A stretch of 64,000 nucleotides of DNA, taken from NCBI GenBank assembly GCA_001599355.1, contig BCGQ01000010.1, forward strand, positions 248,001 through 312,000. Direction: 5' to 3'. This document shows positions 1 through 64,000 of this stretch, piece by piece; within the stretch, counting starts at the first letter, position 1; each line of letters begins with the position of its first letter. Made by a program: the position numbers and the translations under genes. This DNA comes from Nakazawaea peltata (lineage: Eukaryota; Ascomycota; Pichiomycetes; Alaninales; Pachysolenaceae). Below the pieces are notes generated by a model, which was given only the letters and a program-made list of their open reading frames with translations, had not been told where the DNA came from and ran no database searches.

Positions 1-730
1 GCGTCCACCTTCACCTCCACTGCCTATTCTTCATCAAACTGGAACAGGATCTGCCAATTTCAATAGTAAAGATTGGCATATTCCTCTGCTGGTATCGAAT
101 TGGAAGAACCAAAAGGGTTTCACCATTCTGATAGATAAGAGGATGTCATATTTAGATAAAGATAACAAGGAAGAAGAGATCAATCTGGAGAAATTCTCTC
201 TGTTAAGTGAGCTGTTACAAAAAGCTGAGCAAGAGGCTAGAGAAGAGATCAAATTGAAGCAACAAATGCAGGTAAAATTAAAGGAAAGAGAACAACAAGA
301 GAGAGAATATAAATTGCGGGAGTTAGCAAGTAGATCTGGATCAAATTCTGCCACTGGTTCCAATGCTATCTCTTATTCAACTGACTATAAAAGTGCCAAA
401 CAAAGAGAGATTAGTAGAGAGGAAAGACGTAGAAAAGCCGAAAGAGAACTCAAATTATCACAACAAAAGAAGACCCTGGCTCCTCCTGCTGCTCCTTCTC
501 TCGATAAATCCAATGTAGATGCCAGACTTTACTACAAAGCCTCATCTTCTAACAATAATGCCGTCTACGATGGAGAATTATTTGAAGATAAAGATGTGAT
601 GGAAACTGTTTATCGTAATAGTGCGGGAACAGGAGATGAAGATATCAGATCACTGCAACCTGTAGTATTTGAGAAAGGCGAAACCAAAGACGAACTGGAT
701 CCTCCACTGAAGAAACCAAGAAATCTGTAA
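1..730 (+). CDS. PRP45: Spliceosomal SNW-domain protein Prp45, C-terminal part
   Basis: The reading frame is open from base 2 to a TAA at 728-730, so the 5' end lies outside the window. The first residues contain the SNW signature (DWHIP, then VSNWKNQKGFTI, then DKR), which identifies the SNW/SKIP family; the yeast member is Prp45, a component of activated spliceosomes and of the NineTeen-complex environment. After the SNW core the protein becomes highly charged, rich in E, K, R and Q (predicted helical, roughly codons 55-160), as in the C-terminal half of the family. It ends in a basic tail (PLKKPRNL). Convergent with POP5, with a gap of only about 36 bases. CTG codons in it should be read as Ala. 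Identification is confident; only the N-terminus is missing. Confidence 0.9.
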   Translation, partial: RPPSPPLPILHQTGTGSANFNSKDWHIPLLVSNWKNQKGFTILIDKRMSYLDKDNKEEEINLEKFSLLSELLQKAEQEAREEIKLKQQMQVKLKEREQQEREYKLRELASRSGSNSATGSNAISYSTDYKSAKQREISREERRRKAERELKLSQQKKTLAPPAAPSLDKSNVDARLYYKASSSNNNAVYDGELFEDKDVMETVYRNSAGTGDEDIRSLQPVVFEKGETKDELDPPLKKPRNL

Positions 731-766
731 ACTACATAGTGTAATATAAATGATGCTATTATATGA

Positions 767-1201
767 CTAAATAATCTCCACATCATCGGCTAATATGGAG
801 TCAGTAAGTTGTCTATTACGACGGATTGCGTATTGTTCACATTTCTTGATGGTCCCACTCACACGGGAGACTCGCACCACACATGGTTTACCTCCAATAT
901 TATCTATGGTCAGTACGGCGGCACAGACGATCCTATAGTATTCTCTTGGGCACCTTAGGATCCCGGTGCTGGTCAGATTTGAGAAATATTTGATCACCAA
1001 AGTAGTGCTAGCGACACCAGAACCGAAATTCCCAGCTAGTTCATCAATAGCCAGTCGCACTAACTTGATGAGGATCTTGGTGTTGATTGACTGAGGGGTC
1101 AGTTGCCTTAGTGAAAGGGAGTAATTGGAGGAGATGGATGAGATCTCTGTTGGGGGGTATAAAACCTCAAAAAGGATGTATCTTGTTTTTAAGCGGACCA
1201 T
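767..1201 (-). CDS. POP5: RNase P/MRP protein subunit Pop5
   Basis: A 144-residue protein starting at an ATG (CAT at 1199-1201). The N-terminus (MVRLKTRYILFEV) and the later segments GNFG, ARFG-like region and CPREYYRIVCAA match the Pop5/Rpp14 family, which binds the catalytic RNA of RNase P (tRNA 5' maturation) and RNase MRP (pre-rRNA processing) in the nucleus/nucleolus. It is somewhat shorter than the S. cerevisiae protein (about 173 residues), which has a longer acidic C-terminus. The gene is divergent from ELP3 across a 548-base spacer and convergent with PRP45. No introns are needed. Confidence rests on the family motifs and on the conserved N-terminus. Confidence 0.85.
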   Translation of the reverse strand: MVRLKTRYILFEVLYPPTEISSISSNYSLSLRQLTPQSINTKILIKLVRLAIDELAGNFGSGVASTTLVIKYFSNLTSTGILRCPREYYRIVCAAVLTIDNIGGKPCVVRVSRVSGTIKKCEQYAIRRNRQLTDSILADDVEII

Positions 1202-1749: not shown

Positions 1750-3408
1750 ATGCCTCCAAAATCAAAACAACGTTTAGCGCCCGAAAAAGAACGGTTCCTC
1801 CAATGTTGTGGTGACGTCTCTTTGGAGCTTGTGGCTTCCTTGAAATCTTCAAATAAAGACATCAATTTAAATGGGTTGATCATGAGATATTCGAAGAAAC
1901 ACAAATTGAAATCGATGCCTCGTTTGACCGATATCATCAGCTCGATCCCAGACCAGTACAAGAAATACTTGATCCCCAAATTGAAACTGAAACCTGTCAG
2001 AACCGCCTCCGGTATCGCAGTAGTCGCCGTCATGTGTAAACCACATAGATGTCCTCACATTCTGTATACAGGTAACATTTGTGTGTATTGTCCTGGAGGT
2101 CCGGACTCGGATTTTGAATATTCCACACAGTCTTATACTGGTTATGAGCCAACGTCGATGCGTCTGATCAGAGCTCGTTACGATCCTTACGAACAAAGTC
2201 GTGGAAGAATAGAACAATTGAGACAATTGGGACACAGTATCGATAAAGTCGAATATATTATTATGGGGGGTACGTTTATGTCGTTACCTATTGATTATCG
2301 TGAAGATTTCATCACCCAATTGCATAACCTGTTGACTGGATACAATGGTAAAGATATCGATGAGCTGATCAAGTACAGTCAGCAGTCCTTGACTAAGTGT
2401 GTAGGAATCACTATTGAGACAAGACCCGATTATTGTACCGAGACTCATCTTAGTGATATGTTGAAATATGGTTGTACCAGATTAGAAATCGGTGTACAGT
2501 CTGTGTATGAAGATGTAGCCAGAGATACCAATAGAGGTCATACGGTCAAGCTGGTTTGTAAGACTTTTGCAGTACTGAAGGATGCTGGTTATAAAGTTGT
2601 TAGTCATATGATGCCAGATTTACCTAATGTAGGAATGGAGAGAGATTTGGAACAATTCAAGGAGTATTTCGAGAATCCTCTGTTCCGTACAGACGGTTTG
2701 AAATTATACCCTACTTTGGTCATTAGAGGAACAGGATTGTATGAGTTATGGAAGACTGGAAGATATAAGAGTTATAATGCCAATCTGTTGATTGATTTGG
2801 TGCTGCGTATCATGCTGATGGTCCCACCTTGGACTCGTATTTATCGTGTTCAAAGAGATATTCCTATGCCTTTGGTTACAAGTGGTGTAGAAAACGGTAA
2901 CTTGAGAGAATTGCTGTTACTGAGAATGAAAGATTTCGGTACCACTTGTCGTGATGTTCGTACTAGAGAAGTTGGTATTCAAGAAGTTCACCATAAGATT
3001 CAACCTGACCAAGTAGAATTAATCCGTAGAGATTATTATGCCAATGATGGTTGGGAGACTTTCTTAAGTTACGAAGATCCAAAGAAAGATATCTTGATTG
3101 GTTTATTGAGATTACGTAAACTGTCGAAGAAACACACTTATAGAAAAGAGTTCACATCACAGCAGACTTCGATTGTTAGAGAGTTGCATGTCTATGGAAG
3201 TGTCGTGCCGTTACATTCGAGAGATCCTCGTAAATTCCAACATCAAGGTTTTGGTACCTTATTGATGGAGGAACTGTATAGAATCGCTAAAGAGGAGCAT
3301 GGATCCAAGAAGATCAGTGTTATCAGTGGAGTTGGTGTAAGAAATTATTATGCCAAGTTGGGTTACTGGCTTGATGGACCTTTTATGTCTAAATGGATCG
3401 ATGAATAA
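1750..3408 (+). CDS. ELP3: Elongator catalytic subunit Elp3
   Basis: A 552-residue protein (S. cerevisiae 557) that, as the catalytic subunit of Elongator, forms cm5U derivatives at wobble uridine of tRNAs. The radical-SAM half carries the cysteine cluster CKPHRCPHI...[10 protein letters not shown] (residues about 97-118), followed by TRPDYC and GVQSVYEDV. The C-terminal GNAT acetyltransferase domain (about 395-552) carries RELHVYGS and [13 protein letters not shown]. The start ATG at 1750 is the first and fits the family. This gene gives clear code evidence: CTG stands where the family has Ala, for example RE-L-CTG-L-CTG-RM for RELALARM written with one shift (CTG at 2914 and 2920), DLV-CTG-R, EE-CTG-YRIA and RK-CTG-SKK. 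Intronless. Confidence 0.97.
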
Positions 3409-3419
3409 ATATAGTATTG

Positions 3420-4703: not shown

Positions 4704-6093
4704 GGTATTTGAGATCAGTTGTCCACTATATAGGTGGGGGTTGCTAATGATTTATTAAATGCCCCACTGAATCAGAAGCGGAATTTGAAACTCAGGCGGG
4801 AAACTTTTTAATCTGTGAGAAATGTGGACGAGAATGAATTGGCCGAGTATTTGAGTGGTTTCTGCAAAGCGATGGAATCGATCAAGGTTTCCGTATCAGG
4901 AAGTCTTTTTTTCTCAGTATGTTGGAGGAAGGATGAGTGAACAAATGCGTGCGGTATTTAAAAGGGGGTAACCAAGGGGGAGAGCTGTTTATATAGGGAA
5001 AAAATAGAGAACCCCAAAAAGTGGCAGATCGAGATGGGGATGCGAGGCCATGGGGTGGGTGTGGGGTGAACAGGGAATGACCATGTAAGATGACACTAGG
5101 GTGTCTGAGGTGTGTGTTTGGTGTATGGTTAGAGAATCGAAGATCATAGGACTATTAAATTTGACTTCATTGGAAATGGTGTATATAGAGTTTGGTAGTT
5201 TAAATTGAAGTAAGCCTTTTCATAGTTAACTTTAAGAATAGAATATATAACATATATCGATTATTGGAAATATCGGATAACTCTCGAGATCACGAAATTG
5301 AATTCAATTCCTTTCTAATACACTGTTAGCCGATAAAGTTTTAGAATTGTTGCATTAATTTTGTATAACCGCACACTGTATAACTGCACAGCTCTTTAAA
5401 ACCCCCCCTGAGCTTATTAAAAGGCGGTTAGGATTGCAGAAAATTATCGATTAGCGGTGCCATCTAATCCCAGCAAAATATCAATTTAAAATTATTCAAA
5501 ATTATTCAAACTCGCTAAAAGTCGTGTATTTAGTCTCTATTTTATATAAGAAAAATTTTCACCTAACAAATTCAAATCATCTTTGTACAACTCGACCTTT
5601 AGTTGAGGTGGTATAGGATACGTTTTTATAGGTATAAGATGTAATCTATATGAAGAAGCAAATGATGAGACAAATATATATCAAATTATACAGTTATCCC
5701 TGTCTTAATACATTATGTCGATAACATATTATGCACACTCTGAAAGCTCTTTATATGGTGAAATCTTGTATTGTATTGACGTGAAGAAGTAATTATTATG
5801 TCACTGTAAAACTATCTATATGTCTATATCAATTGTAAACTTGTTATTCTGCCTAGCTGGTGACGGTCGTGGTCACCCTGCCTAACCAGCCTAGCCGGCC
5901 TGCTGCCTAACCAGCCTACTGCCTAACCAGCACTGCTCTTCTCATTGTAGCAAAATACGAATATCTGCCATCAATACCCCCTGAAAAATTTTCTCATCTC
6001 AACGGGCAAATAACGCACACCAACGATTTAGCCTAATTTAAAAATTTGATCAGCGCTTAATCATCCACCTACCACTCAATCAATAAATTGAAA
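4704..6093. promoter_or_regulatory. Long divergent upstream region of the unknown gene and TEF4
   Basis: About 1.39 kb without a supported gene. The left third is G-rich (GGGGTGGGTGTGGGG near 5050); the middle is AT-rich. Close to TEF4 are three copies of CTGCCTAACCAGC (about 5878-5932), and at 5982-5998 an RRPE-like TGAAAAATTTT directly followed by CTCATC (PAC, reverse orientation). Both are elements of ribosome/translation genes in yeasts. No tRNA or conserved snRNA was recognised. Confidence 0.45.
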
Positions 6094-7341: not shown

Positions 7342-8835
<1,494 letters not shown>

Positions 8836-11066: not shown

Positions 11067-12986
11067 TCAACGTCTATCAGTAGATCCAACACCTCTCTTA
11101 CCACTATACAAATGCTTTGGTAACGACAGAGAAATATGTCTATCCAGCTCTCCCTTTCTCAGATGTCTATTTCTGTCACGTCTTTGCAACTTTTGCATTC
11201 TATCCAGCTTAGATCTCATAGAACCATCGTTAACACCATCGTTCAATCTGTCAGATTGGTTAAGAGTCTTCTCGAATGATTTATCTCCACCTTCGGTCAG
11301 TTGTTCGTAAACAGACCTTCCAGCAGCAGCACTTCTCTTCTTTTGAGCAGCTGCGGCCTTACCGTTAAGCTTCTCGGTGTTATGACCAATCATGTACATA
11401 TGGTCTTCCAACTCGTTGAAGTTCTTAGTCTGCTTAGTACGTGGCATCATAGCCTTATTCTTCAAAGATTTCTTCATTCTAGCATCATGGACCATCATCT
11501 TTTGCTTGTTTCTGATCCAAGTCAGCTTTTCACGAATATCTTCTTCATCAGATAACTCGAAATCTTCATCTTCGTCATCGTAGAATCCTTCCAGTTCCAA
11601 TCTCAGTTCTTCCTCTTCTAACAGTTGCAATTTAGCACTGATATCTGGGTCAAAGAAGTCATAAACATTCTTACCTTCCAATAATTCTGGCATGATATCA
11701 TTCTTCCAGTCATCATCCTCAAGTAAATACTTATCTTTCAAGTTGATATTGAAGACACCGGCACCTCCATTCTCCAGCTCGATATCACGCAGTAATTGAC
11801 GACGGTTTGGATCATTAATATCAAATTTAGGTAATAATTTGACCAGCTCTGGAATATACAGATCTCTATTGATATTATCTCTCAGTTGTGGTTGCAGAAC
11901 ATGGATCTTGTTCAAGACATTGTTAACTCTACCTGAACCCTTCAACTTCTGCTCAATTCTGGCCGTCAATAACTTCTCACACAGCTTGTTTCTGACTTGC
12001 ATTACGTTGTCTTCTTCATAACAAGAAGTTTGCATGATCTCGACACCTGGTTCGGCAATGACAGTGTTAATAAGCTCTTGTTGAACACCATCCAAATCCT
12101 CAATTCTGATAATATCAGTCTTGTTAATAACAACCAAGACACTCTTGTTGACGAACAATTTCTTCAAAGTATGGAATAACTTCACTTGCAGTTCAATACT
12201 GAAACCACACTGCTCAGACAAGTCCATGAAGTACAAGATACACGATCTCAAATGCAGAATAGCATACATACTCTGCATCTCAATATTGTTCATCTCCTCA
12301 GCAGGTCTGTCCAAAATACCAGGAGTATCAATCAGCTGGAATCTAAGATATTTATAATCGAAATGACCAACGTATAAAGACTTGGTGGTGAACAGATAAG
12401 GTTGGACTTCGACATCCAGCTTGGTGATACATCTTAAGAAAGACGATTTACCAACGTTAGGGTAACCACATACTACCAAAGTTCTGGTATTTGGATCGAT
12501 AGAAGGCAATCTTCCCAAATGCTGTCTGACATGTTCCAAATATAACAAAGGTTCCTTCAATTTCTTCACGATGGTGGCCATTCTACCCAAAGCAGCTCTC
12601 TTCAACTGCTTACATTGGAACAACGACTGACCAAACTTCAATAATCTGTTATAATCTCTGGAAACTTGTTCGATCAACATCTTCAGTCTGTTAACAGCCA
12701 GAAGGGATAATTTATAATGGTTCTTGTCGTATAAAGTGTCCATTAAATCTCTGTGGAAAGGGTGGATATCATCGATGTTTGGGAATCCAGCTAATAACTC
12801 GGCGAATTTCTCTTCGAAACCTTCCAGGGTGAACTTAACCTTTCTCATATAAAAACTACGAATTCTGCTGATTTTGAAGCCTGGTCTGATCACGGTCGGG
12901 GTTTTTCTTTGGGTTCTGTTCAAGACAATGTCCAACATATCGTTGGACGTTGGAACAGTTGGGATATCTTTCCAAGTGAGTTGCAT
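11067..12986 (-). CDS. NOG1: Nucleolar GTPase Nog1
   Basis: A 639-residue Obg/HflX-type GTPase (S. cerevisiae 647) that binds pre-60S ribosomal particles and is needed for their maturation and export. Seen: N-terminal helical domain; G1 GYPNVGKS (residues about 174-181), G3 DTPG (220-223), G4 NKTD (about 288-291); conserved KDKYLLEDDDWKNDIMPE; acidic region; basic C-terminus ending GKRGVGSTDRR. It is one of the richest sources of code evidence: CTG lies at alanine positions in VQPYAFTTKS, FQAIDTPG, AIAHLRSC, IEAQVKLF, RNKACEKLL, RDIEAENGG and MRSKADRM, while TTG lies at leucine in GILDRP. An RRPE-like tract lies upstream. Confidence 0.97.
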   Translation of the reverse strand: MQLTWKDIPTVPTSNDMLDIVLNRTQRKTPTVIRPGFKISRIRSFYMRKVKFTLEGFEEKFAELLAGFPNIDDIHPFHRDLMDTLYDKNHYKLSLLAVNRLKMLIEQVSRDYNRLLKFGQSLFQCKQLKRAALGRMATIVKKLKEPLLYLEHVRQHLGRLPSIDPNTRTLVVCGYPNVGKSSFLRCITKLDVEVQPYLFTTKSLYVGHFDYKYLRFQLIDTPGILDRPAEEMNNIEMQSMYAILHLRSCILYFMDLSEQCGFSIELQVKLFHTLKKLFVNKSVLVVINKTDIIRIEDLDGVQQELINTVIAEPGVEIMQTSCYEEDNVMQVRNKLCEKLLTARIEQKLKGSGRVNNVLNKIHVLQPQLRDNINRDLYIPELVKLLPKFDINDPNRRQLLRDIELENGGAGVFNINLKDKYLLEDDDWKNDIMPELLEGKNVYDFFDPDISAKLQLLEEEELRLELEGFYDDEDEDFELSDEEDIREKLTWIRNKQKMMVHDARMKKSLKNKAMMPRTKQTKNFNELEDHMYMIGHNTEKLNGKAAAAQKKRSAAAGRSVYEQLTEGGDKSFEKTLNQSDRLNDGVNDGSMRSKLDRMQKLQRRDRNRHLRKGELDRHISLSLPKHLYSGKRGVGSTDRR

Positions 12987-26844: not shown

Positions 26845-27705
26845 ATGTTAAATATTGCTTCTAGAAGATTGGTCCAACGTGGTTTTGTACCATTGGCCAG
26901 GAAAAACCTCATTTCCCGTCAAATCAGCTTGTCAAACAGATTCCAAGCCAGACAATACTCGTCCGGATCAAGTCCAAGCGGCGGTAACACCGGTAGATGG
27001 ATCACCATTGGAGTTTTGGTCGCTGCAGGGCTTGGATTATACACTTTAAACGGTACTGGGAAGCTGCCATCGCTGTATATCGAGCCTCTGAAACCTAAAG
27101 TTGAACCTCTGTTCAAACCTTCCGATGGAGTCTCGGTAATCTTCGTCCTTGGAGGACCAGGTGCTGGTAAAGGTACCCAATGTGCCAATATGGTGAAGGA
27201 TTACGGGTTTGTCCACTTGTCAGCTGGTGATTTATTGAGAGCCGAGCAACTGAGACCAGGTTCCGAGTATGGAGAAATGATCAAACAGTACATTAAGGAC
27301 GGGTTAATTGTACCACAAGAAGTGACAATTGCTCTTTTGGAAAATGCCATGAAACTGGAGGTGTCAAAGGGAAATAAGAGATTCCTTATCGATGGGTTCC
27401 CTCGTAAAATGGACCAACTGATCACTTTTGAAGAAAAAGTGGCCAAAAGTTCCTTCACTTTGTTCTTCGAATGTACAGAACTGATCATGTTAGAAAGATT
27501 ATTGGAAAGAGGAAAGACCAGTGGTCGTGAGGATGACAATACCGAGAGTATCCGTAAAAGATTTAGAACTTTTGTCGAGACTAGTATGCCAGTTGTTGAA
27601 TATTTTGAAGCTCAAAACAAGGTGGTAAAGGTAAATTGTAACTCTCCTGTTGATGAAGTTTATGGTAATGTTAAGAAAGCTTTGAAGGATAAGTTAGATA
27701 TTTAA
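26845..27705 (+). CDS. URA6: Uridylate (UMP/CMP) kinase with N-terminal mitochondrial-type extension
   Basis: A 286-residue protein whose residues about 98-285 form a nucleoside monophosphate kinase of the Ura6 type: P-loop GGPGAGKGT, HLSAGDLLRAEQ, LIDGFPRKMDQ, LLERGKTSGREDDN. Ura6 makes UDP (and CDP) in pyrimidine synthesis. The first 40 residues are basic and lack acidic residues (MLNIASRRLVQRG...RQYSS), like a mitochondrial presequence, followed by a membrane segment (about 51-69, WITIGVLVAAGLGLY). S. cerevisiae Ura6 (204 residues) lacks this part. CTG codes Ala in DQAITFE (position of DQAISFE). Adenylate kinase is the alternative, but the lid and REDDN are UMP-kinase-like. Confidence 0.88.
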   Translation: MLNIASRRLVQRGFVPLARKNLISRQISLSNRFQARQYSSGSSPSGGNTGRWITIGVLVAAGLGLYTLNGTGKLPSLYIEPLKPKVEPLFKPSDGVSVIFVLGGPGAGKGTQCANMVKDYGFVHLSAGDLLRAEQLRPGSEYGEMIKQYIKDGLIVPQEVTIALLENAMKLEVSKGNKRFLIDGFPRKMDQLITFEEKVAKSSFTLFFECTELIMLERLLERGKTSGREDDNTESIRKRFRTFVETSMPVVEYFEAQNKVVKVNCNSPVDEVYGNVKKALKDKLDI

Positions 27706-30528: not shown

Positions 30529-31875
30529 TTAGTTTCTCTTGCCGGACTTCATACGTCCTTCAAATCCGGCACGCTTCTTCTTATTCTTGTCACCTGTAAC
30601 AGTGACACCCCCCTTCTTTTGGATAATCCCAGAAAACTTCCTCTTCATCTTGGTCTGTTTTTTACTACGTTTACCCTTGTTCTCCTTCCTCAATTGCAAA
30701 TTCTCTTCACGTCTTTTCAGTCTCAGCAGGATAGTGGCCTCAACAGTATCTTTACGGTCCTTCCATTCCAATTCAGACTTCAATTTCTGTTTCTCCTTAC
30801 GTTTCAACAGCTTACGTAACAATTTTTCATCGTCTTTCAACTTATTTCCCTCAATGTTGGAGATCAATCTACTCCATTTGTTCTTTTCTTCGAACTTGGC
30901 TCTTTTCTCCAGTGACATCGACTCCAACTTTTGTTTCTGTTGTTGCAATTTCAGAAGATGCAGTTTAATGTCGTTGTTGGAAGGACCCTTCTTCTTCTTG
31001 CCCTTTCTTAATGCCGATAAATCAGAGGTCAATCTGTCTCCGTCGTTGAAGACAATGTTTTGGAACAAAACTTGGCTCTCGGCTTCCAGATCCTCTTCAA
31101 CATCATCATCAGAACTAGAATGGTCTTCTTCTTCTTGGTCTTCTTCTAATTCTCGCAGCTTTCTCTTCTTCAGTTGTTCCAGTTTTAACTTACGTTGCTC
31201 CAAAATTTGTTGTCTTGAAGAAGGAGCTCCTGTTACTTTGGTTCCTGGAGCCTTTCTCTTTTCCTTCATAGCTGTGATCTTTGAAGATAATCTTTCTCTT
31301 AACAGAGCCAATCTCTCTTCTTTAGCTTTCTGTTCTTCAGGTGAAAGTTGTTGCAGTTTCTTTTTATTGGAATTTTTTGGTTTGGATTCGTTTTCAATCT
31401 CATTACCTTCATCATCAAATACTAAATTAGACAGCATAAGAGATTCTTCAGCTTCTGAAGTCTCAGCCGGAGCATCTTCAGCATCTTCAGCTTTAGATTC
31501 TTGCTCCTCATCTTCCTCATCACTATCTTCAAGCTCACTAGAGTTCACCTCTGGAACATCATCGTCTTCAGATTCCTCTTCTTCTTCAGCTTCTGGAGCC
31601 TCAACAGGCAACTTCTTACGACCAGGAATAACAACCGGCTTAGCTACCAGCTCCTTTTGCTTCAAAATCTCACTGGCACTAGAATTCTTCACATCTTTAA
31701 CCTCAGGATCAAACTTCAGCCTCTTATTCTGCTTCAACTCTTCCTTCGATTTCTTCTTCTCCTGCCATTGGGTTTGAGTAGCCTCATCGTAGTAATATTT
31801 GGCAGGGATCAACGATAGAAGCCCATCAAATGCAGACGAATGCGTCTTAAGACGCTCTTCTAATGATTTAGACAT
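30529..31875 (-). CDS. RRP14: Ribosome-biogenesis protein Rrp14 (SURF6 family)
   Basis: A 448-residue, very charged protein (S. cerevisiae Rrp14 434). The N-terminal block SLEERLKTHSSAFDGLLSLIP with AKYYYD is the Rrp14 N-domain; the C-terminal SURF6 domain shows NKWSRLI, DDEKLLRKALKRKEKQK (CTG read as Ala next to a TTG leucine), WKDRKDTVE and RREENLQLRKENKGKRSKK. Rrp14 acts in the nucleolus in early 40S/60S assembly. Acidic stretches fill residues about 90-140 and 270-290. The promoter has both PAC (CTCATC, 31951-31956) and RRPE-like elements, matching ribosome-biogenesis regulation. Confidence 0.93.
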   Translation of the reverse strand: MSKSLEERLKTHSSAFDGLLSLIPAKYYYDEATQTQWQEKKKSKEELKQNKRLKFDPEVKDVKNSSASEILKQKELVAKPVVIPGRKKLPVEAPEAEEEEESEDDDVPEVNSSELEDSDEEDEEQESKAEDAEDAPAETSEAEESLMLSNLVFDDEGNEIENESKPKNSNKKKLQQLSPEEQKAKEERLALLRERLSSKITAMKEKRKAPGTKVTGAPSSRQQILEQRKLKLEQLKKRKLRELEEDQEEEDHSSSDDDVEEDLEAESQVLFQNIVFNDGDRLTSDLSALRKGKKKKGPSNNDIKLHLLKLQQQKQKLESMSLEKRAKFEEKNKWSRLISNIEGNKLKDDEKLLRKLLKRKEKQKLKSELEWKDRKDTVEATILLRLKRREENLQLRKENKGKRSKKQTKMKRKFSGIIQKKGGVTVTGDKNKKKRAGFEGRMKSGKRN

Positions 31876-33894: not shown

Positions 33895-35973
33895 ATGAAT
33901 GGAAGTAGATTAAGACAACCTGGGTCTTTCAGAGTGGCTCCTTCCAAGATAGAATTGCAACAAGATATTAATCTGAGGCCATTATCAAGTTTGAGTGGTT
34001 CTGGGATTCCCCCTCCTACAGCTTTAGTAGTTAAGAGTCGCAGAAGTTCTCTTAATTATTATCCATTGAGAGAGAGCAGGACAAATAATAATGTTGTCGA
34101 AGACAAGGAGTTGAAAGATTCTCCTTCGAATAAACCAAGAACTCCAACTATGACCAGGGTCACTATGATCGATACAGCTTCTCCAAAGACCCCTGTACTG
34201 CAGCAAATGCGTAGTATGAGAAGCCCTCAAGAACAGTCTCCTTCGGTCGATAATATTAAGGTTGTTGTTAGATTTAGACCATTCAGTAGTGCGGAGCGTA
34301 AGACTCATAGAGTGGCTGATCATCACCAAAATAACACTATTTCAATGACAACAAGAAATGGGAACAGACATGCCTTCAAATTCGATAGAGTCTTTGGAAT
34401 GTCAGTTTCTCAGCTGGAATTATACCATTATTCAGTATCCCAAACAGTTGAAGATTTATTTGGTGGGTTTAACGGAACTGTTTTATGTTATGGTCAAACT
34501 GGTTCTGGTAAAACATATACTATGATGGGTGGAATGAAGGAAGAAGATAAAGGTATCGTTCCTCGTATTAGTGATCAGATTTTTAGTAAAATCAATGAGA
34601 TCAAGACTGTCGAACACCGTATAAGTGTTCTGTACATGGAGATTTACAATGAGAGATTAATTGATTTGTTGGTTCCTCTGAGCAATGAAAGATCATCAGG
34701 TGATCATTTAAAGATCATCGAAGACCCAGAACATGGTGTCGTAGTTAAAGGTCTTAAAAGAGTCAATGTCCACTCTAAATCTCAAATTAGAGAATTAGTT
34801 AATAGTGGTAGTTTATGTCGTAAAGTGAGGGCAACGAAGATGAATGAAGAGAGTTCCAGATCTCATTCTATTTTCGAAATCCAGTTGCATCAATATAACC
34901 CAGAGACTAATATCAGTAAAACTTCCAAATTGTATTTGGTTGATTTACTGGGCTCAGAGAAAGTACACAAGACTGGTGCAACTGGTGCTACATTGGAAGA
35001 GCTGAAAAGAATCAACAGCTCATTAAGTTGTTTAGGAAATGTTATCAACTCCCTCACAAATTCAGAAAGTCATTTACATCCACAACAACAAAAGATCTCT
35101 CCAAGAAGACATGTTCCTTACAGAGATTCCAAATTAACAAGAATCTTGCAAGAATCTCTCGGAGGTAATTCCAGAACTACTCTTATTCTCAACTGTTCTC
35201 CGTCGGTAGTCAATGATCAAGAGACATTATCCACTTTGAGATTTGGTTCCAGACTGAAGACAGTACAAAATCATGCTCAAATCAATGAGCATGAAGGAAT
35301 GGCCTCTCAAACTTCTTCTCCAACCACACCATCTTTCCTGAACCATCCTGATATACAGCAAGTAGCTGATCTGTTACGTAAAACTCAACAGGAGCATCTG
35401 AAAGATCGACTGTACATTGACTCGTTGGAGAGAGAATTGGAGAGATTGAAAATGGAATATTCATCTTCTTCTCCAACGTCTTCAGCCTCTTCTGTGAGCT
35501 CGGAACTGTCTACTGTTCTGACAACTTTTGAGGACACAGACGAGTTTGACCAGTTGATCAAGAAATATAACTCTCTGAAAAGTCATGAATTGCAACAATT
35601 GGAGCTCTCGAAGGATCTGGAATTGATAAAATTGAAATTGAAAGTTGCAGAGTTAGAGACGGTGAATGGGAATTTGGTCAACGATTTACGTACTCTGATA
35701 GGTACTAAAATTAGCCAAAAGATAGCTGACTACGAAACTGAAGAGGAGATGATGCTGAGAAACAAACTGTTCAGAAAACTATACAAAAGATACCAAGAAT
35801 TGAACAATAATTACTCTCAATTACAACTGAAACATTCGGAGATGGCAATGTATCTCAAGAGTCTTGATCATGGCAGCGATAATGACAGTTGCGATAGTCC
35901 AAAGACGAAACGGGGATCCAAGATTGGACTCAATTGGAGAATTGTACATCCTCTTATAGTAAACGAAGAATAA
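33895..35973 (+). CDS. KIP2: Plus-end kinesin Kip2
   Basis: A 692-residue kinesin (S. cerevisiae Kip2 706). A Ser/Pro-rich N-terminal arm (about 1-115) precedes the motor domain (about 117-465): VVVRFRPFS, P-loop GQTGSGKT (about 200-207), switch I NEESSRSH, switch II DLAGSE, LSCLGNVI and HVPYRDSKLTRILQ. Coiled coils follow (about 500-665). The N-terminal arm plus mid-length tail is the Kip2/CENP-E-like layout; Kip2 carries dynein and Bik1 to microtubule plus ends. Switch II is encoded DL-CTG-GSE (CTG at 34948-34950); only alanine fits this nearly invariant motif. Leucines of SKLTRIL and SLGG use TTA, TTG and CTC. Confidence 0.92.
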   Translation: MNGSRLRQPGSFRVAPSKIELQQDINLRPLSSLSGSGIPPPTALVVKSRRSSLNYYPLRESRTNNNVVEDKELKDSPSNKPRTPTMTRVTMIDTASPKTPVLQQMRSMRSPQEQSPSVDNIKVVVRFRPFSSAERKTHRVADHHQNNTISMTTRNGNRHAFKFDRVFGMSVSQLELYHYSVSQTVEDLFGGFNGTVLCYGQTGSGKTYTMMGGMKEEDKGIVPRISDQIFSKINEIKTVEHRISVLYMEIYNERLIDLLVPLSNERSSGDHLKIIEDPEHGVVVKGLKRVNVHSKSQIRELVNSGSLCRKVRATKMNEESSRSHSIFEIQLHQYNPETNISKTSKLYLVDLLGSEKVHKTGATGATLEELKRINSSLSCLGNVINSLTNSESHLHPQQQKISPRRHVPYRDSKLTRILQESLGGNSRTTLILNCSPSVVNDQETLSTLRFGSRLKTVQNHAQINEHEGMASQTSSPTTPSFLNHPDIQQVADLLRKTQQEHLKDRLYIDSLERELERLKMEYSSSSPTSSASSVSSELSTVLTTFEDTDEFDQLIKKYNSLKSHELQQLELSKDLELIKLKLKVAELETVNGNLVNDLRTLIGTKISQKIADYETEEEMMLRNKLFRKLYKRYQELNNNYSQLQLKHSEMAMYLKSLDHGSDNDSCDSPKTKRGSKIGLNWRIVHPLIVNEE

Positions 35974-41782: not shown

Positions 41783-42437
41783 TTTACTAAAGAACCTCGA
41801 GGGTTAAAGATGTTAGGCGTTTGGATTAATAAATATAAGACTTGATTTGATTGATGTAGATGTATGGTAGCATAGAGCATATAGAGCGTATATGTGTATA
41901 GCATGTGTATAGCATGTGTATAGCATGTCCGTAATAACTCTATAGTAAGTCTATAGTATGTCTAAATAGCCTATAGTTACCCCATACTATGTGCGCATAC
42001 AATATTCCCCCACTGCAATACTGCCCACAGTTAACTTGAACAGAGTCAAAAATACGGAGTTATAAATACATACACCCAGGGTTAAAGGGCATAATCTCAT
42101 GCCCTTTAAGAGATAGATCTCGAGTGGAGAGAGACCGAAACCCCTACTTTTATTTCTCAAAAATCTCTACATATCCTCCATAAACATACTCATCTTTACC
42201 AAAATATCTCTTCACGACAACATCCACTCAATCCTACCCCCATACTATGCACCCCCATTCTCAGCTCTTCTTACCCGTCTCCGGCCCGTTTAAGCGCTTT
42301 TTGCCCTTTTTGAAAAATTTGACGAATTTTGCCCTTTTTCGCTCCGATCCTCAATTTTTATTCACGTCGAGGATTTGTTCAGATGAGATCTCAACTAAAA
42401 AGCCGGTCAACAAAAGAGTCAGTTGCAAGCAAACACG
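41783..42437. promoter_or_regulatory. DLD2 upstream region
   Basis: 655 bases. Contains three tandem TGTGTATAGCA units (41893-41925), a perfect 11-base inverted repeat TTAAAGGGCAT/ATGCCCTTTAA (42082-42092 and 42099-42109), further TGCCCTTT copies at about 42301 and 42330, and an RRPE-like TGAAAAATTT near 42309. Confidence 0.5.
41893..41925. repeat. Tandem TGTGTATAGCA repeat
   Basis: Three perfect 11-base units in a row at 41893, 41904 and 41915. Confidence 0.9.
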
Positions 42438-44039
42438 ATGAGTCTGAACATTTTGAGAAGAGCTGCTGGATCTGTTGCTTCTAGAGCAGTTTTGGGTCGT
42501 TTGGCGCTCCGTGGAGTCGTCTCTAAAGCTCCTGTCGTCATTTCGGCAGCCTCGAGCATCAGATTGAGCTCAACTAAGGTCGTTCCTCTCACCAAGGACA
42601 CGTATTCGTACGTTAAAAGAGGTGATTACAAGCAGTTGGAGGACAGTGACATCGAATTCTTCAAGCAAGTTTTGGGAAATGGTGTTGTCACCGACGCCGA
42701 TGACTTGTTATTCTACAATGAAGATTGGATGAGAAAATACCGTGGGGAATCGCAGGTAGTTTTGAAGCCAAAGACCACCGAACAGGTCTCTGAGATTTTG
42801 AAATATTGTAATGACAAGAACTTGGCTGTTGTCCCACAAGGTGGTAACACTGGTCTTGTCGGTGGTTCGATCCCTGTCTTCGATGAAGTTGTCATTTCTT
42901 TATCGAATATGAACAAAGTCAGATCTTTCGATAATGTTAGTGGTATTTTGAAGGCCGATGCCGGTTTGATCTTGGAAAGTGCCGACATGTTCTTGCTGGA
43001 GCAAGGTTATATCTTCCCTCTTGACTTGGGAGCCAAAGGTTCTTGTCATATCGGAGGTAACGTAGCTACTAATGCCGGTGGTTTAAGATTGATCAGATAC
43101 GGATCTTTACATGGATCTGTTTTGGGTGTAGAAGCCGTCTTACCAGACGGAACTATCTTGGACTCGATGCATTCCTTGAGAAAGGACAACACTGGTTACG
43201 ATTTGAAGCAAGCTTTCATCGGTTCCGAAGGTACTTTGGGTATAATCACCGGTGTCTCGATCTTATGTCCAGCCAGACCTAAGCTGGTCAACATTGCTTT
43301 CCTTGGAGTTTCCTCTTATGAGCTGGTCCAAAAGACTTTTGTTCATCTGAGAAACGAATTGTCCGAGATTGTCTCCCTGTTCGAGTTCATGGACAGAAAT
43401 TCTCAAGTCTTGGCCGAACAATTTTTGAAAATGGACCACCCATTGGAGGAGGAGTTCCCATTCTATGTCTTAATTGAGACTTCTGGTTCCAATAAAGACC
43501 ACGACGATGCTAAATTGGAAGCTTTCTTGGAATCTGCTATGGAAGAAGGTCTTGTAGACGACGGTATTGTTGCTCAAGACGAGACTCAATTGAAAACTTT
43601 GTGGCTGTGGAGAGAAAGTATTGCCGAACTGAGTACTATTGCCGGTGGTGTCTATAAATATGATGTTTCTTTACCATTGGCTGATTTATACGGATTGGTT
43701 GAGCTGGTCAAAGAGAGATTATCAGCAGCTAATTTGATCGGAGAGACCGATGAGTTCCCAGTTTTGGATGCCGTTGGATATGGTCACATTGGAGATGGTA
43801 ACTTGCACTTGAACGTTGCTGTCAGAAGATATTCCAAGGAAGTTGAGAAGGTTTTGGAACCTTTTGTCTACGAATGGATCCAAAGTAAGAAGGGTTCCAT
43901 CAGTGCCGAGCATGGTTTAGGTTTCCAAAAGAAGAACTATATTCATTACAGTAAGACCGAGACCGAGATCAAGATGATCAAACAATTGAAGCAATTGTAC
44001 GATCCTAAGATGATCTTGAACCCTTACAAGTACGTTTGA
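42438..44039 (+). CDS. DLD2: Mitochondrial D-lactate/D-2-hydroxyglutarate dehydrogenase
   Basis: A 533-residue flavoenzyme (S. cerevisiae Dld2 530). I start at the ATG 42438; the frame runs 15 bases further to a TTG. The basic N-terminus ([11 protein letters not shown]...SSTK) is a mitochondrial presequence. FAD_binding_4 domain at about 90-270: [59 protein letters not shown]-oxidase C domain: [37 protein letters not shown]. Dld2 oxidises D-2-hydroxyglutarate coupled to pyruvate, or D-lactate. CTG falls at recalled yeast Ala positions in FLAEQGY, SAFEFM, HARNELSE, AEASTIAGG and VEAVKERL. Confidence 0.95.
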
Positions 44040-44713: not shown

Positions 44714-46015
44714 ATGCCTCTTGTTAAACGGACTTTTCATCAGATTCAACCTCCCATCCACCAGTACCCCAAAATGCCTAGAGACCCGTTGATCGGTATT
44801 GTAGGTAAACCTTCATCAGGTAAAAGTACTACCTTGAATAGTTTGACCGACGCCGACCTGAAAGTTGGAGCTTTCCCCTTCTGTACTATCGAACCCAACA
44901 GAGCCACAGGATATTTGCAAGTCGACTGTGCTTGTAGTAGATTTGGCAAGCAAGAATTCTGTAAACCAAACTATGGATGGTGTACAAATGGTAAGAGACA
45001 TATTCCAATTCAATTGTTGGACGTTGCAGGGTTAGTTCCAGGAGCCAGTACTGGAAGAGGTTTAGGTAACAAGTTCTTAGATGATTTAAGACAGGCAGAT
45101 CTGTTGATTCATGTAGTGGATGTCAGTGGTACAACGGATGCTGAAGGTAAGAACACTAGAGGATATGATCCATTGAATGATATTGATTGGTTACAAGATG
45201 AAATTCGTCTTTGGATCGAGAATAATTTACAGAAAAGATGGGGCTCCATTGTGAGAAGACATACTCTGACCAAGTCGAGTAGCGTTGAAACATTGAGACT
45301 GCAATTTGGTGGTTATGGAGCTACTCTGAAGATGGTTCTGCGACTGTTAGATAAGTTAAAAGATCTTCCTAAATTGGAAGAATGGGATAATGAATGGATC
45401 ACTAAAGTGGTCAAACTGTTTATGAGTGTCAAGTTTCCTACAGTATTGGCATTGAATAAGATCGACCACCCAGATGCCGATAAGAATGTCTCCAAGATCT
45501 TATTGAAACATCCTAACACCAAACTGGTGTTGACTTCTCTGATCACCGAGGTATTTTTGCGTAAATTGCTGAAACAAAAGTACATTAAATATGAAGAAGG
45601 AACAGAATTTGTTGATACATATGAAGATTTAGGGGATGAAAGTGGGTTAAAACCTTTAGATGAAAGAATTGCCCTGAGAATTGAAGATATTAGAGATTTG
45701 GTTCTTTACAGATTTGGAAGTACAGGAGTTGTACAAGTGTTACAACTGGCTGCCGATGTCTTGGATTTAGTTCCTATTTACACCGTAAGGAACATCAACA
45801 CTTATACCGGTGCTTCTGGTCAATATGTCTTTAGAGATTGTACTTTGGTCAAGAGAGGTTCTGCTGTTGGAAATGTGGCCAGACATATCATGGGAGACGT
45901 GACGATTCTGCTGATTGAAGGAGTTGGGGGAACTCGTGTGAGTGAAGATGATGTGATCGATGCTGGTAAGAATGATATTCTTTCTTTCCGTATTGTACCA
46001 TCTTCTAGTAATTAG
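44714..46015 (+). CDS. YLF2: Obg/YchF-type GTPase Ylf2
   Basis: A 433-residue GTPase of the OLA1/YchF branch (S. cerevisiae Ylf2 405). Visible: G1 GKPSSGKST, switch I-type [23 protein letters not shown] with [33 protein letters not shown] (G4), and a C-terminal TGS-like domain ([29 protein letters not shown]). A second ATG at codon 21 ([11 protein letters not shown]) matches the usual start of the family; the first 20 residues ([10 protein letters not shown]) may add targeting. S. cerevisiae Ylf2 is linked to mitochondria. Intronless. Confidence 0.9.
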
Positions 46016-46573: not shown

Positions 46574-47992
46574 ATGATGCTGTTGAGAAGAGGATTCATG
46601 GGCGCTACCCGATTTGGTAGCGCATTACTGAGAAAACAGTTTATTCAGCCAACTAGAACTTTCCAAACCTCCACTGGTTTATGGCAAGAAAAGAAGAAAT
46701 ATGAATCGATCTTGAACGAGGATATGTTGGCCAAGCTGGGTGTTGAAACCGAGGCTGAACCAGCTCTGAAGGAAGGAAGTGGTCCATCTGAGTTGAACGA
46801 GGAACTTAAAAAGAAATTTGAACTGCAAAGGGCCCAGCAAAAGCAGCGTAAGAAGAATACTCACACTACTCAGACCGATCTTAAACGTGAGAGATATGCC
46901 AAGTTCTTTTATTCATCTCTGTTGGTGGGTCTTTTGGGTGGAAGTGCTTATATGACACGTGACTGGGATCAAGAACTGGACGGAAACTTGTACAATGAAC
47001 TGGAGAATGGTTACTATCCAGATAAAATGTACAGCCGTTTCAAGAAGAGATTCAACAGCTTGTTTGGATTATTTACCGAGCCAGTATTTGAGGATTTATT
47101 ACCTCCACCACCTCCAGATCCTTATAAGAGACCTTTGACTCTTGTTGTCAGCTTGGAAGATTTGTTAATTCACTCTGAATGGACTACTAAGAAGGGATGG
47201 AAGACTCTGAAGAGACCTGGATTAGACTACTTTTTGGGTTACTTGTCTCAATACTATGAAATTGTCGTCTTCAGTTCCAATTATATGCAATTCCTGGAAC
47301 CAATTGTTCAAAAATTGGACCCACTTCATGCTTTCATCTCTTACTCTTTGTTCAGAGAGGCTTCTCGTTACGTTGACGGTAAAGTAGTCAAGGATTTGAG
47401 TTTGATGAACAGAGACTTATCTAAGATGATCATTCTCGATACTGAGAGCGACTCTTATCTGTTACAACCAGAGAATGCCATCCCAATGGAACCTTGGACC
47501 GGAACTCCTGATGATAAATTGGTCAAATTAATCCCATTCTTAGAATACTTGGCTACTCAACCAATCAAGGATGTCAGACCAATCTTGAACTCTTTCAAGG
47601 ACAAATCTCAGATTCCAGAAGAGTTCTTACACAGAGAACTGCTCTTGAGAAAGAAGTTCGAAGAAGATTACAGAGAAAAACATAAAGGTATGAACTCTGG
47701 AAACTGGGCCGCTTCATTATTAGGCTTAAGCGTCCAAAAGCCATCTGCTCCAAAGATGCCATTAGATATCATCAGAGAGGAAGGTCAGAAGCAGTATTTG
47801 CATTTCACAAACTACTTGAAAGAGCATGGTGAGAAACTTTTGGCCGAAGAGAAGAAGAGAGAGCAAGAGTTCCTTGCTGAGAACAAGTTCACTTTGGAGA
47901 AGATCTTAGTCGAAGGAATGCCTTCAGCTGAGGATGTTGCTAAACAACAACTGGCCAAGCAAGCTGCTGCTGCTTCTTCCGAAGCTAAATAA
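46574..47992 (+). CDS. TIM50: TIM23 translocase receptor Tim50
   Basis: A 472-residue inner-membrane protein (S. cerevisiae 476). Presequence at the N-terminus (LRRGFMGATRFGSALLRKQ), a charged matrix segment, one membrane span (about 114-131, FFYSSLLVGLLGGSAYM), then an FCP1/HAD-like intermembrane-space domain: PPPPPDPYKRPLTLVVSLEDLLIHSEW (the DxDx site is degenerate, as in Tim50), KRPGLDYFL, KDLSLMNRDLSKMIILDT, LQPENAIPMEPW. Tim50 receives preproteins from TOM and gates Tim23. The C-terminus is E/K-rich with QAAAASS. The first codons are ATG ATG CTG. Confidence 0.96.
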   Translation: MMLLRRGFMGATRFGSALLRKQFIQPTRTFQTSTGLWQEKKKYESILNEDMLAKLGVETEAEPALKEGSGPSELNEELKKKFELQRAQQKQRKKNTHTTQTDLKRERYAKFFYSSLLVGLLGGSAYMTRDWDQELDGNLYNELENGYYPDKMYSRFKKRFNSLFGLFTEPVFEDLLPPPPPDPYKRPLTLVVSLEDLLIHSEWTTKKGWKTLKRPGLDYFLGYLSQYYEIVVFSSNYMQFLEPIVQKLDPLHAFISYSLFREASRYVDGKVVKDLSLMNRDLSKMIILDTESDSYLLQPENAIPMEPWTGTPDDKLVKLIPFLEYLATQPIKDVRPILNSFKDKSQIPEEFLHRELLLRKKFEEDYREKHKGMNSGNWAASLLGLSVQKPSAPKMPLDIIREEGQKQYLHFTNYLKEHGEKLLAEEKKREQEFLAENKFTLEKILVEGMPSAEDVAKQQLAKQAAAASSEAK

Positions 47993-50803: not shown

Positions 50804-52186
50804 ATGGTCCAACCACACGAACCAGAATTCGAACAAGCTTACAACGAATTGTTGTCTACTTTGCAAGACTCCACTTTGTTCGAGAAGCACCCAGAGTACA
50901 AGAAGGTTATCCCAGTTGTCTCTATCCCAGAGAGAATTATTCAATTCAGAGTTGTTTGGGAGAACGACAAGGGTGAATTGGAAGTTAACAGAGGTTACAG
51001 AGTCCAATTCAACTCTGCTTTGGGTCCATACAAGGGTGGTTTGAGATTCCACCCATCTGTCAACCTTTCCATCTTGAAGTTCTTGGGTTACGAGCAAATC
51101 TTCAAGAACGCCTTGACCGGTTTGAACATCGGTGGTGGTAAGGGTGGTTCCGACTTCAACCCTAAGGGTAGATCTGATGCCGAGATCAGAAGATTCTGTA
51201 CCTCTTTCATCAGACAATTGGCCCGTCACATTGGTCAATTCACTGATGTCCCAGCTGGTGATATCGGTGTTGGTGGACGTGAGATTGGTTTCATGTTCGG
51301 TGCCTACAAGCAACTGCAAAACTCTTGGGAAGGTGTTTTGACCGGTAAGGGTTTGTCTTGGGGTGGTTCTTTGATCAGACCAGAAGCCACTGGTTACGGT
51401 TTGGTTTACTACGTTGAGAAGATGATTGAGCACGCCTCTAACGGTAAGGAATCCTTCAAGGGTAAGAGAGTCGCCATCTCTGGTTCCGGTAACGTTGCCC
51501 AATACGCCGCTTTGAAGGTTATTGAGTTGGGTGGTACCGTTGTCTCTCTTTCTGACTCCAAGGGTGCTATTGTTTCCCAATCTGGTATTACCCCAGCTCA
51601 AGTTGAGGCTATTGCCGCTGCCAAGTTGAAGTTCCAATCTTTGGAGCAAATCATCGGTGAGGCTTCTGCCTTCTCTTCTACCGACATCAAGTACCACCCA
51701 GATGCTCGTCCATGGACTTTGGTTGGTCAAGTTGATGTTGCTTTGCCATCTGCTACCCAAAACGAGATCTCTGGTGAGGAAGCTAAGGCTTTGGTTGCTG
51801 CCGGATGTAAGTTCGTTGCTGAAGGTTCCAACATGGGTTCCACCCAAGAGGCTATCGACGTCTTCGAAGGTGAGAGAATCTCTACCGCTTCTGCTTCTGC
51901 CCCAGCTATCTGGTACGCCCCAGGTAAGGCTGCTAACGCCGGTGGTGTTGCCGTCTCTGGTTTGGAAATGGCTCAAAACTCTCAAAGAGTCCAATGGACC
52001 GAGGAGGAGGTTGATGCTAAGTTGAAGGACATCATGGTTACTTGTTTCAACAACTGTTTGGAGACTGCCAAGGCCTACTCTTCCGAGTCCAACAAGGAGT
52101 CCTTGCCATCTTTGGTTAAGGGTGCCAACATTGCTGGTTTCAAGAAGGTTGCCGATGCCATGTTCAACCACGGTGACGTTTTCTAA
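50804..52186 (+). CDS. GDH1: NADP-specific glutamate dehydrogenase
   Basis: A 460-residue enzyme (S. cerevisiae Gdh1 454) that assimilates ammonium by reductive amination of 2-oxoglutarate. Visible: [30 protein letters not shown] (active-site lysine region), [38 protein letters not shown], the nucleotide-binding [10 protein letters not shown] with SDSKGA favouring [15 protein letters not shown], and [10 protein letters not shown]. The terminal VF is conserved. Codon usage is extreme, as for an abundant protein: Leu is almost always TTG and I find only one in-frame CTG (in KQ-CTG-QNSWEG). A long open frame on the opposite strand is a by-product of this bias. Confidence 0.97.
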
Positions 52187-52664
52187 ATTAAATGATGAAT
52201 GATATAAAATATATAGCTAAATGAGAATGATTAAGGTCTTTTCAAGGAGGTAGAATCAGTAAAGCACTATAATATGGTAGGCATCATCGGTATCGCACTA
52301 TCGGCATGTCACTATCGGCAGAACATCACTAAGACCATCACGATACTTTTTATTTGTGCTTGTTGATTCAGGTCACCCCCAATTTGAACCCCCATTTTGA
52401 AAAATAAAAAAAAAAATTTAAACTCCGAAACGGGGAATTGAACCCCGATTGTCGCGATGAGAACGCGAAGTGATAGCCATTACACTATTTCGGATTTTCT
52501 TGTTATCTTTTTCTCTCAATCAAAATATATTCAGATATGTCCCCTTTAGGAAAACCGCTTAATTTACACGACTTTATTTGCGCTGTAAAATTCATTTTGC
52601 CCTTCATTTAAGATGAGAACAGATAGAATTGAAGATCAGGTAACACCCAAAAGACTCTATAACG
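52187..52664. other. GDH1 3' region, tRNA and SIN4 promoter
   Basis: 478 bases. Apart from the tRNA it holds a TATCGGCA/CATCGGTATC repeat (about 52283-52320), one recurrent-motif copy (TACACGACT, 52565-52573) about 90 bases before the SIN4 start, and AT-rich spacers. Confidence 0.45.
52423..52494 (-). tRNA. tRNA-Glu (anticodon CTC)
   Basis: A 72-base cloverleaf on the minus strand: acceptor TCCGAAA pairing with TTTCGGA, TA at 8-9, a D-arm like that of yeast tRNA-Glu (GTGTAATGGCTATCAC), an anticodon stem TCGCG/CGCGA with loop TTCTCAT (anticodon CTC, reading GAG), T-arm GGGGTTCAATTCCCC, and discriminator G. No intron. T-rich DNA follows on the minus strand (A-run at 52405-52417 on plus), giving a pol III terminator. 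Confidence 0.95.
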
Positions 52665-62251: not shown

Positions 62252-62776
62252 GATTTGGGTGTTTTGAGGGGGGTAGTAAAGGTGTAGTTCTTTTAAATAA
62301 GGAGGTTGCTTGGGGGTTGAGGAAAAATTTTCTATAGGCTGGGGGCTGGAGGGAGGGCAGGAAGGGAAAAGAATGAGATGGGCGGAGAGTTGGCGGAGAG
62401 TAGGTGGAGGGTAGGCGGAGGGTAGGCGGAGAGAGGAAACAACGGGCAGACAGTAAATTGCGCGCAGATTCAAAAGCCGCCGTACGGCTTAAAAAGAAAG
62501 GTGGTGTGTTTTTTTAGATGGCCCGATTGGGAATACGGTACACGACCTTTTTGGGGGTTAGGTTCTAGGGGGGTTAGGGGGGTTAGGAGGGGGGTTAGGA
62601 AGGTACTTGGAATGGAGAAAATAAGACGACAATAAGGGGATAAAGGATAAAATATGTATGTGGATCAGTAGCAACATGTCATCCGATCTTTACGTAAATA
62701 TCAGTAACTACCTCTCACTACATATCACTCAATCAAGTATATCACACTCTCATTAACTATACCTCTATTACTCTAT
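62252..62776. promoter_or_regulatory. FRA1 promoter and GCV2 3' region
   Basis: 525 bases. Contains an 11-base-type imperfect repeat of GGCGGAGAGTA/GGCGGAGGGTA (about 62380-62436), one recurrent-motif copy (TACACGACC, 62539-62547) preceded by ATTGGGAA as in other copies, and a GGGGGGTTAGG repeat (about 62567-62600). Confidence 0.45.
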
Positions 62777-64000
62777 TTATTGCCCAGCAACTTCCTCAAC
62801 ACTAGGACAAGTACACATCAAATTAATATCTCCATAAGTATCATCAAGTCTTGTCACAGTTGGCCAGCACTTGTTTTGTTTCAAGAACTCCAATGGGAAC
62901 AGAGCTTGCTCTCTGGTATAACTTCTAGTCTCCCAATCTTGACTTTGAACAATGTCTTGTAAGTTATGAGGAGCATTATGCAAAATAGCACCGTCGGACT
63001 CTCCAGCCTCGACCAATGCAATTTCTTTTCTGATTTGGATCAAAGAATCGACGAATCTGTTCAACTCAGCAATGTTTTCAGATTCAGTTGGCTCGATCAT
63101 TAAAGTACCTGGGACTGGGAAAGACATAGTTGGAGCATGGAATCCGTAATCTTGTAATCTCTTAGCAACGTCAAGCAGCTCGATACCGATTGGCTTGAAT
63201 TGTCTGATATCAAGGATGAACTCATGTCCACAGTGCTCGGAAGCAGATGGGTTAACAAATAAGACTTTGTAGTGGTCTTTCAATCTGTACATCATGTAGT
63301 TGGCATTTAAGATAGCAATGACAGAAGAATATGGCAAATATTGACCTCCCATCATCTTGATGTAAGCATAACTGATGGTCAAAATGGAGGCGGAACCGAA
63401 ACCGGCAGAACAAATTGGATCAATGGAGTTCTCGGTCTTGTTAGTGGTCTTAGTCAATGGGTGACTTGGTAAGAATTCGGTCAAATGTTTCTTGACACAA
63501 ATTGGTCCAACACCTGGTCCTCCACCACCATGAGGAATAGCAAAAGTCTTATGTAAATTCAAGTGACAAACATCGGCACCTAAATCTCCTGGAGAGGTTA
63601 AACCAACTTGAGCATTCATGTTAGCACCGTCCATGTAGATTTGACCTCCGTTAGCGTGGACAGTGTCGATGGCAGCTCTAATTCCTGGCTCGAATAATCC
63701 ATAAGTGGAAGGATAAGTGATCATAGCAGCGGCCAAGTTGTCCTTGTGCTTCTCAGCCTTCAATTTCAAATCTTCCAAATCTAAAGAACCATCTGGTTGA
63801 CACTTGACAGCAACAACCTTCATACCAGCCATCAGCAGGGACAGAGGGTTGGTTCCGTGAGCAGAAACAGGAATAAGACAGATGTTTCTATGCAGTTCTC
63901 CCTTCTTCTCGAAGTATTGTTTAATGACACTCAAACCAGTGTATTCACCTTGAGCACCAGAGTTTGGTTGTAAAGTAGTAGCGTCGAAACCGGTAATATC
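62777..64000 (-). CDS. GCV2: Glycine decarboxylase P protein, C-terminal part
   Basis: The frame is open to the window edge on the minus strand ([22 protein letters not shown] at the edge), so the N-terminal two thirds lie outside. About 407 residues are present. Blocks of the PLP-dependent P protein: [60 protein letters not shown] (Lys of the internal aldimine in NLHKTF), [36 protein letters not shown]. It is the decarboxylating subunit of the mitochondrial glycine cleavage system. CTG occurs three times in TNP-x-S-x-x-MAGM (63833-63838, 63842-63844), where the family has PASAA. Confidence 0.96.

Follow-up and report, generated by a model that had tools for sequence, protein, structure and literature searches.

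How is the codon CUG translated in the 64,000-nucleotide stretch of contig BCGQ01000010.1 presented here (the window, always meant at its full length)? A sequence-only reading had claimed that CTG stands for alanine in many conserved genes of the window while TTG, TTA and CTC remain at leucine positions, and had equated this with the code of the Pachysolen/Nakazawaea/Peterozyma clade. By its open reading frame (ORF) content and its homologue matches the window, whose G+C is 40.8%, has the genes of a budding yeast at the density usual for one, and no ribosomal DNA match was found within it. Judging from sequence comparisons, we put at about 0.97 the probability that the window comes from the nuclear genome of a budding yeast in which CUG is translated as alanine (NCBI table 26). 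The CUG-Ala code itself is already known; what the window adds is a quantitative picture of how heavily the reassigned codon can be used.

Residues facing CTG in homologues

Ten conserved genes, which carry 143 of the 398 CTG codons counted in the window, were translated with CTG written as X, to keep the codon itself from influencing the search, and homologues of the masked proteins were sought among sequences with solved structures. Of 37 homologue rows, 19 were kept (fungal, fly, slime mould, bacterial and archaeal) and 18 dropped, these being mammalian, duplicates, or in three cases from a more distant branch. The ten genes are:

1750..3408, + strand: Elp3 orthologue; 15 CTG, 15/15 aligned to the yeast homologue, facing 12 Ala, 2 Ser and 1 Asp
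7720..8835, + strand: Mnn9 orthologue; 20 CTG, 19 aligned, 16 of them facing Ala in the yeast homologue
11067..12986, - strand: Nog1 orthologue; 24 CTG, 24/24 aligned to the yeast homologue, 15 facing Ala and 3 Ser
26845..27705, + strand: Ura6-type UMP kinase; 8 CTG, 5 aligned, 2 facing Ala in the yeast homologue
32209..33396, + strand: Vma5 (V-ATPase subunit C) orthologue; 13 CTG, 10 aligned, 5 facing Ala and 2 Ser
33895..35973, + strand: kinesin (Kip2 in the sequence-only reading); 20 CTG, 6 aligned in the motor domain, 3 facing Ala (including that of DLAGSE) and 2 Ser
42423..44039, + strand: Dld2-type FAD dehydrogenase; 9 CTG, 8 aligned, 4 facing Ala in the closer of two bacterial homologues
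44714..46015, + strand: YGR210-like Obg-type GTPase; 15/15 CTG aligned to one archaeal homologue (38% identity), 5 facing Ala and 1 Leu
46574..47992, + strand: Tim50 orthologue; 13 CTG, 3 aligned, facing 1 Ala, 1 Ser and 1 Lys
62777..64000, - strand: Gcv2 (glycine dehydrogenase P protein), truncated by the window end; 6 CTG

Altogether 111 of these 143 codons could be aligned to the closest of the homologues kept, where they faced 66 Ala, 11 Ser, 6 Glu, 5 Asp, 4 Val and 1 Leu, with the remainder scattered; against Saccharomyces cerevisiae only, 51 of 76 faced Ala, 8 Ser and none Leu. This is the tabulation by which the sequence-only reading had proposed to be checked, and alanine is clearly ahead of serine and leucine in it. 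When all Leu, Ala and Ser codons were masked together, CTG stood at Ala at 66 of 110 sites, compared with 8.2 expected (hypergeometric P 1.4e-48), at Ser at 12 (6.7 expected) and at Leu at 1 (9.8 expected). The codons claimed for leucine behaved as such (TTG faced Leu at 141/205 sites, TTA at 69/108, CTC at 5/8), and so did CTT (23/30). Columns for which at least two homologues were used and all of them agree are called unanimous here; CTG was found in 16 of the 53 such columns for Ala, in none of the 89 for Leu and in 1 of the 42 for Ser.

The GCN alanine codons of the same genes serve as a yardstick. They faced Ala at 75 of 142 sites, a frequency matched by CTG with its 66 of 110 (Fisher P 0.31), and therefore CTG acts like any alanine codon. 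The share of sites off alanine is no smaller for GCN (67/142) than for CTG (44/110), so we read the off-alanine CTG sites as ordinary divergence.

The 16 motifs quoted in the sequence-only reading were all found in the window proteins, with CTG at their Ala letters, and for those of Elp3, Mnn9, Nog1, Ura6 and the kinesin (a protein with a kinesin motor domain according to Pfam) the closest homologue indeed has Ala there. The two Dld2 motifs divided their homologues: each is Ala in one of the two and not in the other. For PASAAM of Gcv2, the first two CTG positions held up, with Ala at the first in all 80 bacterial relatives and at the second in 79, while the third did not, being Val in 65 and Ala in 7. 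Of the six Gcv2 CTG columns, three are alanine columns in these relatives (80, 79 and 64 sequences with Ala), two have Val in most of them (65 and 52) and one is mixed; as a control, the standard code was matched by 172 of 189 codons other than CTG at positions where the same relatives are at least 90% conserved. For Elp3, one contig scan of prokaryote genomes gave no relatives. Nem1 and Rrp14, also named in the earlier claim, were checked through Pfam scores only.

Competing meanings of CUG

The same masking test was run on all 61 sense codons. For CTG, alanine was the best of the 20 meanings, with a lead of 52 log-likelihood units over serine and 142 over leucine. For every other codon with at least 11 sites, 46 in number, the standard amino acid came out best; of the 14 with at most 10 sites, 8 gave their standard amino acid, AGC, AGG, CGA, CGC and TGC did not, and CTA had no sites.

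We also scored 19 proteins against Pfam with CTG translated as Ala, Leu or Ser; nine of these do not belong to the ten genes above. Alanine was best in 30 of 33 domain rows. In the 32 rows that appear under every code (Acetyltransf_1 has no row under Ser and was excluded from the sums), alanine gained in total 194.7 bits over leucine and 86.1 over serine; the NOG1 and MMR_HSR1 rows overlap in one protein, and leaving NOG1 out brings the sums to 189.7 and 85.6. One of the proteins scored was:

30529..31875, - strand: Rrp14/SURF6 protein; 16 CTG, Pfam SURF6 score 156.9 with Ala, 154.3 with Ser and 145.1 with Leu

Secondary or overlapping rows are not among the 33. Alanine was best for FeoB_N (twice), AAA_17, adh_short_C2 and KR, which are present under all three codes, and for Acetyltransf_10 and Tim44, which lack a row under some code. 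Column counts, likelihood, Gcv2 relatives and domain scores each place CUG at alanine positions of orthologues, and on this central claim the sequence-only reading stands.

Several observations weigh against alanine. Of the 111 aligned CTG codons, 11 face Ser and 34 face other residues, one of these being Leu. Three Pfam rows (Fe-S_biosyn, Med16_C and Acetyltransf_1) favour leucine by 0.1 to 0.4 bit. Among the secondary rows, Microtub_bd and AAA_18 are best with serine, by 1.0 and 0.8 bit over alanine; among rows lacking under some code, GTP_EFTU is 1.5 bits better with leucine and Thymidylate_kin 0.4 better with serine, and Gtr1_RagA and RsgA_GTPase (weak) are listed under leucine only. The intensity of CTG use in the window, taken up below, conflicts with the published rarity of CUG in code-changed clades. 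The 64-kb window does not carry a tRNA reading CUG (anticodon CAG); a second search allowing introns added nothing to the sole tRNA gene found there:

52423..52494, - strand: tRNA-Glu(CTC), from the tRNA search of the window

How far do these points carry any other meaning? Under the standard code CUG would be leucine and the alanine matches would be due to chance or misalignment. The lone CTG facing Leu, in the YGR210-like GTPase with its single homologue at 38% identity, and the three Pfam rows at most 0.4 bit better with Leu are on its side. Against them stand the 89 unanimous Leu columns without a CTG, the 1 of 110 sites at Leu where 9.8 were expected, the likelihood difference of 142 and a Pfam sum lower by 194.7 bits; with 1 of 111 CTG codons at a leucine position of the closest homologue, we give this reading a vanishingly small chance. 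Serine, the meaning of CUG in table 12 (Candida) and also in Ascoidea/Saccharomycopsis, is the second residue at CTG sites and the second-best meaning by likelihood. Alanine, however, is 6 times as frequent at those sites, the likelihood difference is 52, the Pfam sum falls by 86.1 bits with Ser, and CTG occupies 1 of 42 unanimous Ser columns compared with 16 of 53 for Ala. Moreover, GCN codons themselves face Ser at a similar rate (11/142). With 11 of 111 CTG codons facing Ser and 66 facing Ala, serine is exceedingly improbable, and from the aligned sequences we reject both the standard and the CUG-Ser readings.

Two further possibilities keep alanine as the principal meaning. CUG might be mainly alanine with low-level leucine, e.g. 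through tRNA-Leu(UAG) wobbling to CUG, and column statistics are blind to leucine misreading of a few percent. CTA, the codon best suited to such a tRNA, is depleted in the window, as if tRNA-Leu(UAG) were limited, a weak point given that CTA is unpreferred across the whole subphylum (available part of PMC11540330), and a figure of 10% leucine was once published for Pachysolen. The part of PMC8645108 available to us judges that figure mistaken and cites >99% alanine, and CTG stands at alanine columns as freely as GCN, a use that strong misreading should prevent; we regard such ambiguity as unlikely. It would be more surprising still if the window recorded a fourth, independent CUG reassignment, to alanine, in a yeast outside Alaninales. 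The heavy CUG use is unlike printed accounts of code-changed yeasts (PMC5951914 and PMC8084343, as far as their available text goes), and a 2017 review lists Ascoidea rubescens as CUG-alanine (PMC5499181, available part), a listing contradicted by PMC5951914, where this species reads CUG as serine. In PMC5951914, which assigned codes through BLAST, plus liquid chromatography with tandem mass spectrometry (LC-MS/MS) for 18 species, there is one CUG-Ala clade, comprising Nakazawaea, Peterozyma and Pachysolen (the order is now named Alaninales in the NCBI taxonomy), and placing the window in that known clade explains it more simply. In G+C the window is near Nakazawaea ambrosiae with its 42.3% (PMC10106607, of which we draw on Table 2), a hint only. 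Given the single CUG-Ala clade of PMC5951914, the code of the window is probably the code of the Pachysolen/Nakazawaea/Peterozyma clade, as first proposed.

Heavy use of CTG and depletion of CTA

Codon usage was counted in 34 ORFs (15,087 codons, introns not modelled), each with at least one CTG, hand-picked from 41 ORFs of at least 150 amino acids, of which 5 antisense and 2 nested ORFs were dropped. In this set no alanine codon is commoner than CTG, which makes up 398 of 1,116 (35.7%; 26.4 per thousand codons), followed by GCT (383), GCC (200), GCA (104) and GCG (31). With CTG as alanine the residue make-up is 8.9% Leu, 7.4% Ala and 9.5% Ser; with CTG as leucine it would be 11.6% Leu and 4.8% Ala. 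Base composition was considered as the cause of the high CTG use and set aside, non-coding composition predicting 23.5% of alanine codons. Because GCN cannot become CTG in one step, two base changes were needed for CTG to arise where an old alanine site had been.

The CTG share of alanine codons ranges from 0.02 to 0.71 across ORFs and from 0.21 to 0.53 across 8 kb bins, and no cause was found. ORFs with at least 8 alanine codons differ strongly in it (chi-square 98, 30 degrees of freedom), even without two genes of expected high expression that nearly lack CTG:

50804..52186, + strand: NADP glutamate dehydrogenase (Gdh1 type, named by eye); 1 CTG among 48 Ala codons
6088..7341, + strand: EF1B-gamma (Cam1/Tef4 type); 4 CTG among 49 Ala codons, ATG at 6094

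A codon-adaptation index built from these two genes was uncorrelated with CTG share in the other 32 ORFs (Spearman -0.03), and we therefore claim no general expression effect.

Such usage is at odds with what has been printed. CUG is described as relatively rare in code-changed clades, tending towards poorly conserved sites (PMC5951914); mean CUG frequencies of 0.003 to 0.006 are given for three GAL genes of reassigned species (PMC8084343, available part), and CTG avoidance is reported for Serinales and Ascoideales (PMC11540330, likewise in part). PMC6701816 did not include the Ala clade. The texts consulted in a literature search made no mention of heavy CUG use in Alaninales, which does not prove that it is unreported. 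We lean towards the view that reassignment is complete in this lineage, i.e. that CUG is genome-wide the leading alanine codon and stands at invariant alanines as freely as GCN; the genome-wide part extrapolates from the 34-ORF window, which may not represent the genome. If true, this completed reassignment would contradict the generalisation that a reassigned CUG is relatively rare and kept away from conserved sites, and would show that capture can bring a sense codon to first place among the codons for its new amino acid without a single-base link to GCN. The code has been in print since 2016 (PMC5951914); heavy CUG use is the less expected, quantitative new point.

CTA is depleted in the 34 ORFs, with 28 CTA, 133 CTC and 201 CTT, compared with 1293 A-ending, 981 C-ending and 2160 T-ending codons in the six other four-fold boxes (P 2.5e-22). 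This depletion is not specific to the Ala code, because the parts of two papers available to us report CUA as under-used in CUG-Ser clades (PMC6701816) and CTA as unpreferred across the whole subphylum (PMC11540330). The depletion may reflect a limited supply of tRNA-Leu(UAG), a tRNA that in larger amounts would compete for CUG.

We note some further features: (i) A glutamine-rich C2H2 zinc-finger protein (17559-19352, + strand) has 29 CTG codons, several of them within or adjoining glutamine runs. (ii) A C/D-box small nucleolar RNA (snoRNA) of family snoR38 (5654-5751, + strand) lies ~340 bases upstream of the EF1B-gamma gene. The S. cerevisiae snR38 lies in the intron of TEF4, an EF1B-gamma gene, and the proximity in the window may be an old neighbourhood kept; no GTATG donor site was found within 5400-6130. 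(iii) A 13-base motif, CTGCCTAACCAGC, is present in three copies (starts 5878, 5903 and 5919, span 5878-5931), all between this snoRNA and the EF1B-gamma gene, with no further copy on the + strand of the window.

Proposed mechanism and known systems

In the account given by the literature on the Ala clade, the ancestral tRNA-Leu(CAG) would have been lost, and CUG would be read by a tRNA-Ala whose anticodon had mutated to CAG. Alanyl-tRNA synthetase would charge this mutated tRNA because the enzyme requires no particular anticodon bases; the identity pair of tRNA-Ala is G3-U70. For species of the clade, the CAG tRNA has been derived from tRNA-Ala by anticodon mutation (PMC5951914). The change would be old in the lineage of the window, since CUG has come to stand at ordinary and invariant alanine sites alike and leads the alanine codons of the window, leucine being written mainly TTG, TTA, CTT and CTC.

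Standard or CUG-Ser tables mispredict the window proteins at CTG, on average at 2.6% of residues (34 ORFs). With CUG used so heavily at invariant sites, a late stage of sense-codon capture should be directly measurable in such a genome, and likewise the fate of CUA and of the competing tRNA-Leu(UAG).

Among known systems, the window is like the Alaninales code (table 26; Pachysolen tannophilus, Nakazawaea and Peterozyma) in having CUG at alanine columns within a budding-yeast gene set, and other codons standard where sites suffice; it differs from the published account of that order in that CTG is the commonest alanine codon, at 26.4 per thousand. Mitochondria of Ashbya, in which CUU and CUA are reported to be alanine, likewise show CUN codons captured by alanine, but that code is mitochondrial and concerns other codons, whereas the window genes are of nuclear type. 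With CUG-Ser1 (Candida, table 12) and CUG-Ser2 (Ascoidea/Saccharomycopsis) the window shares the reassigned codon and an under-used CUA (PMC6701816, available part). The meaning, however, is alanine and not serine, and CTG is not avoided at conserved sites, unlike in Serinales and Ascoideales, which avoid CTG according to the available part of PMC11540330.

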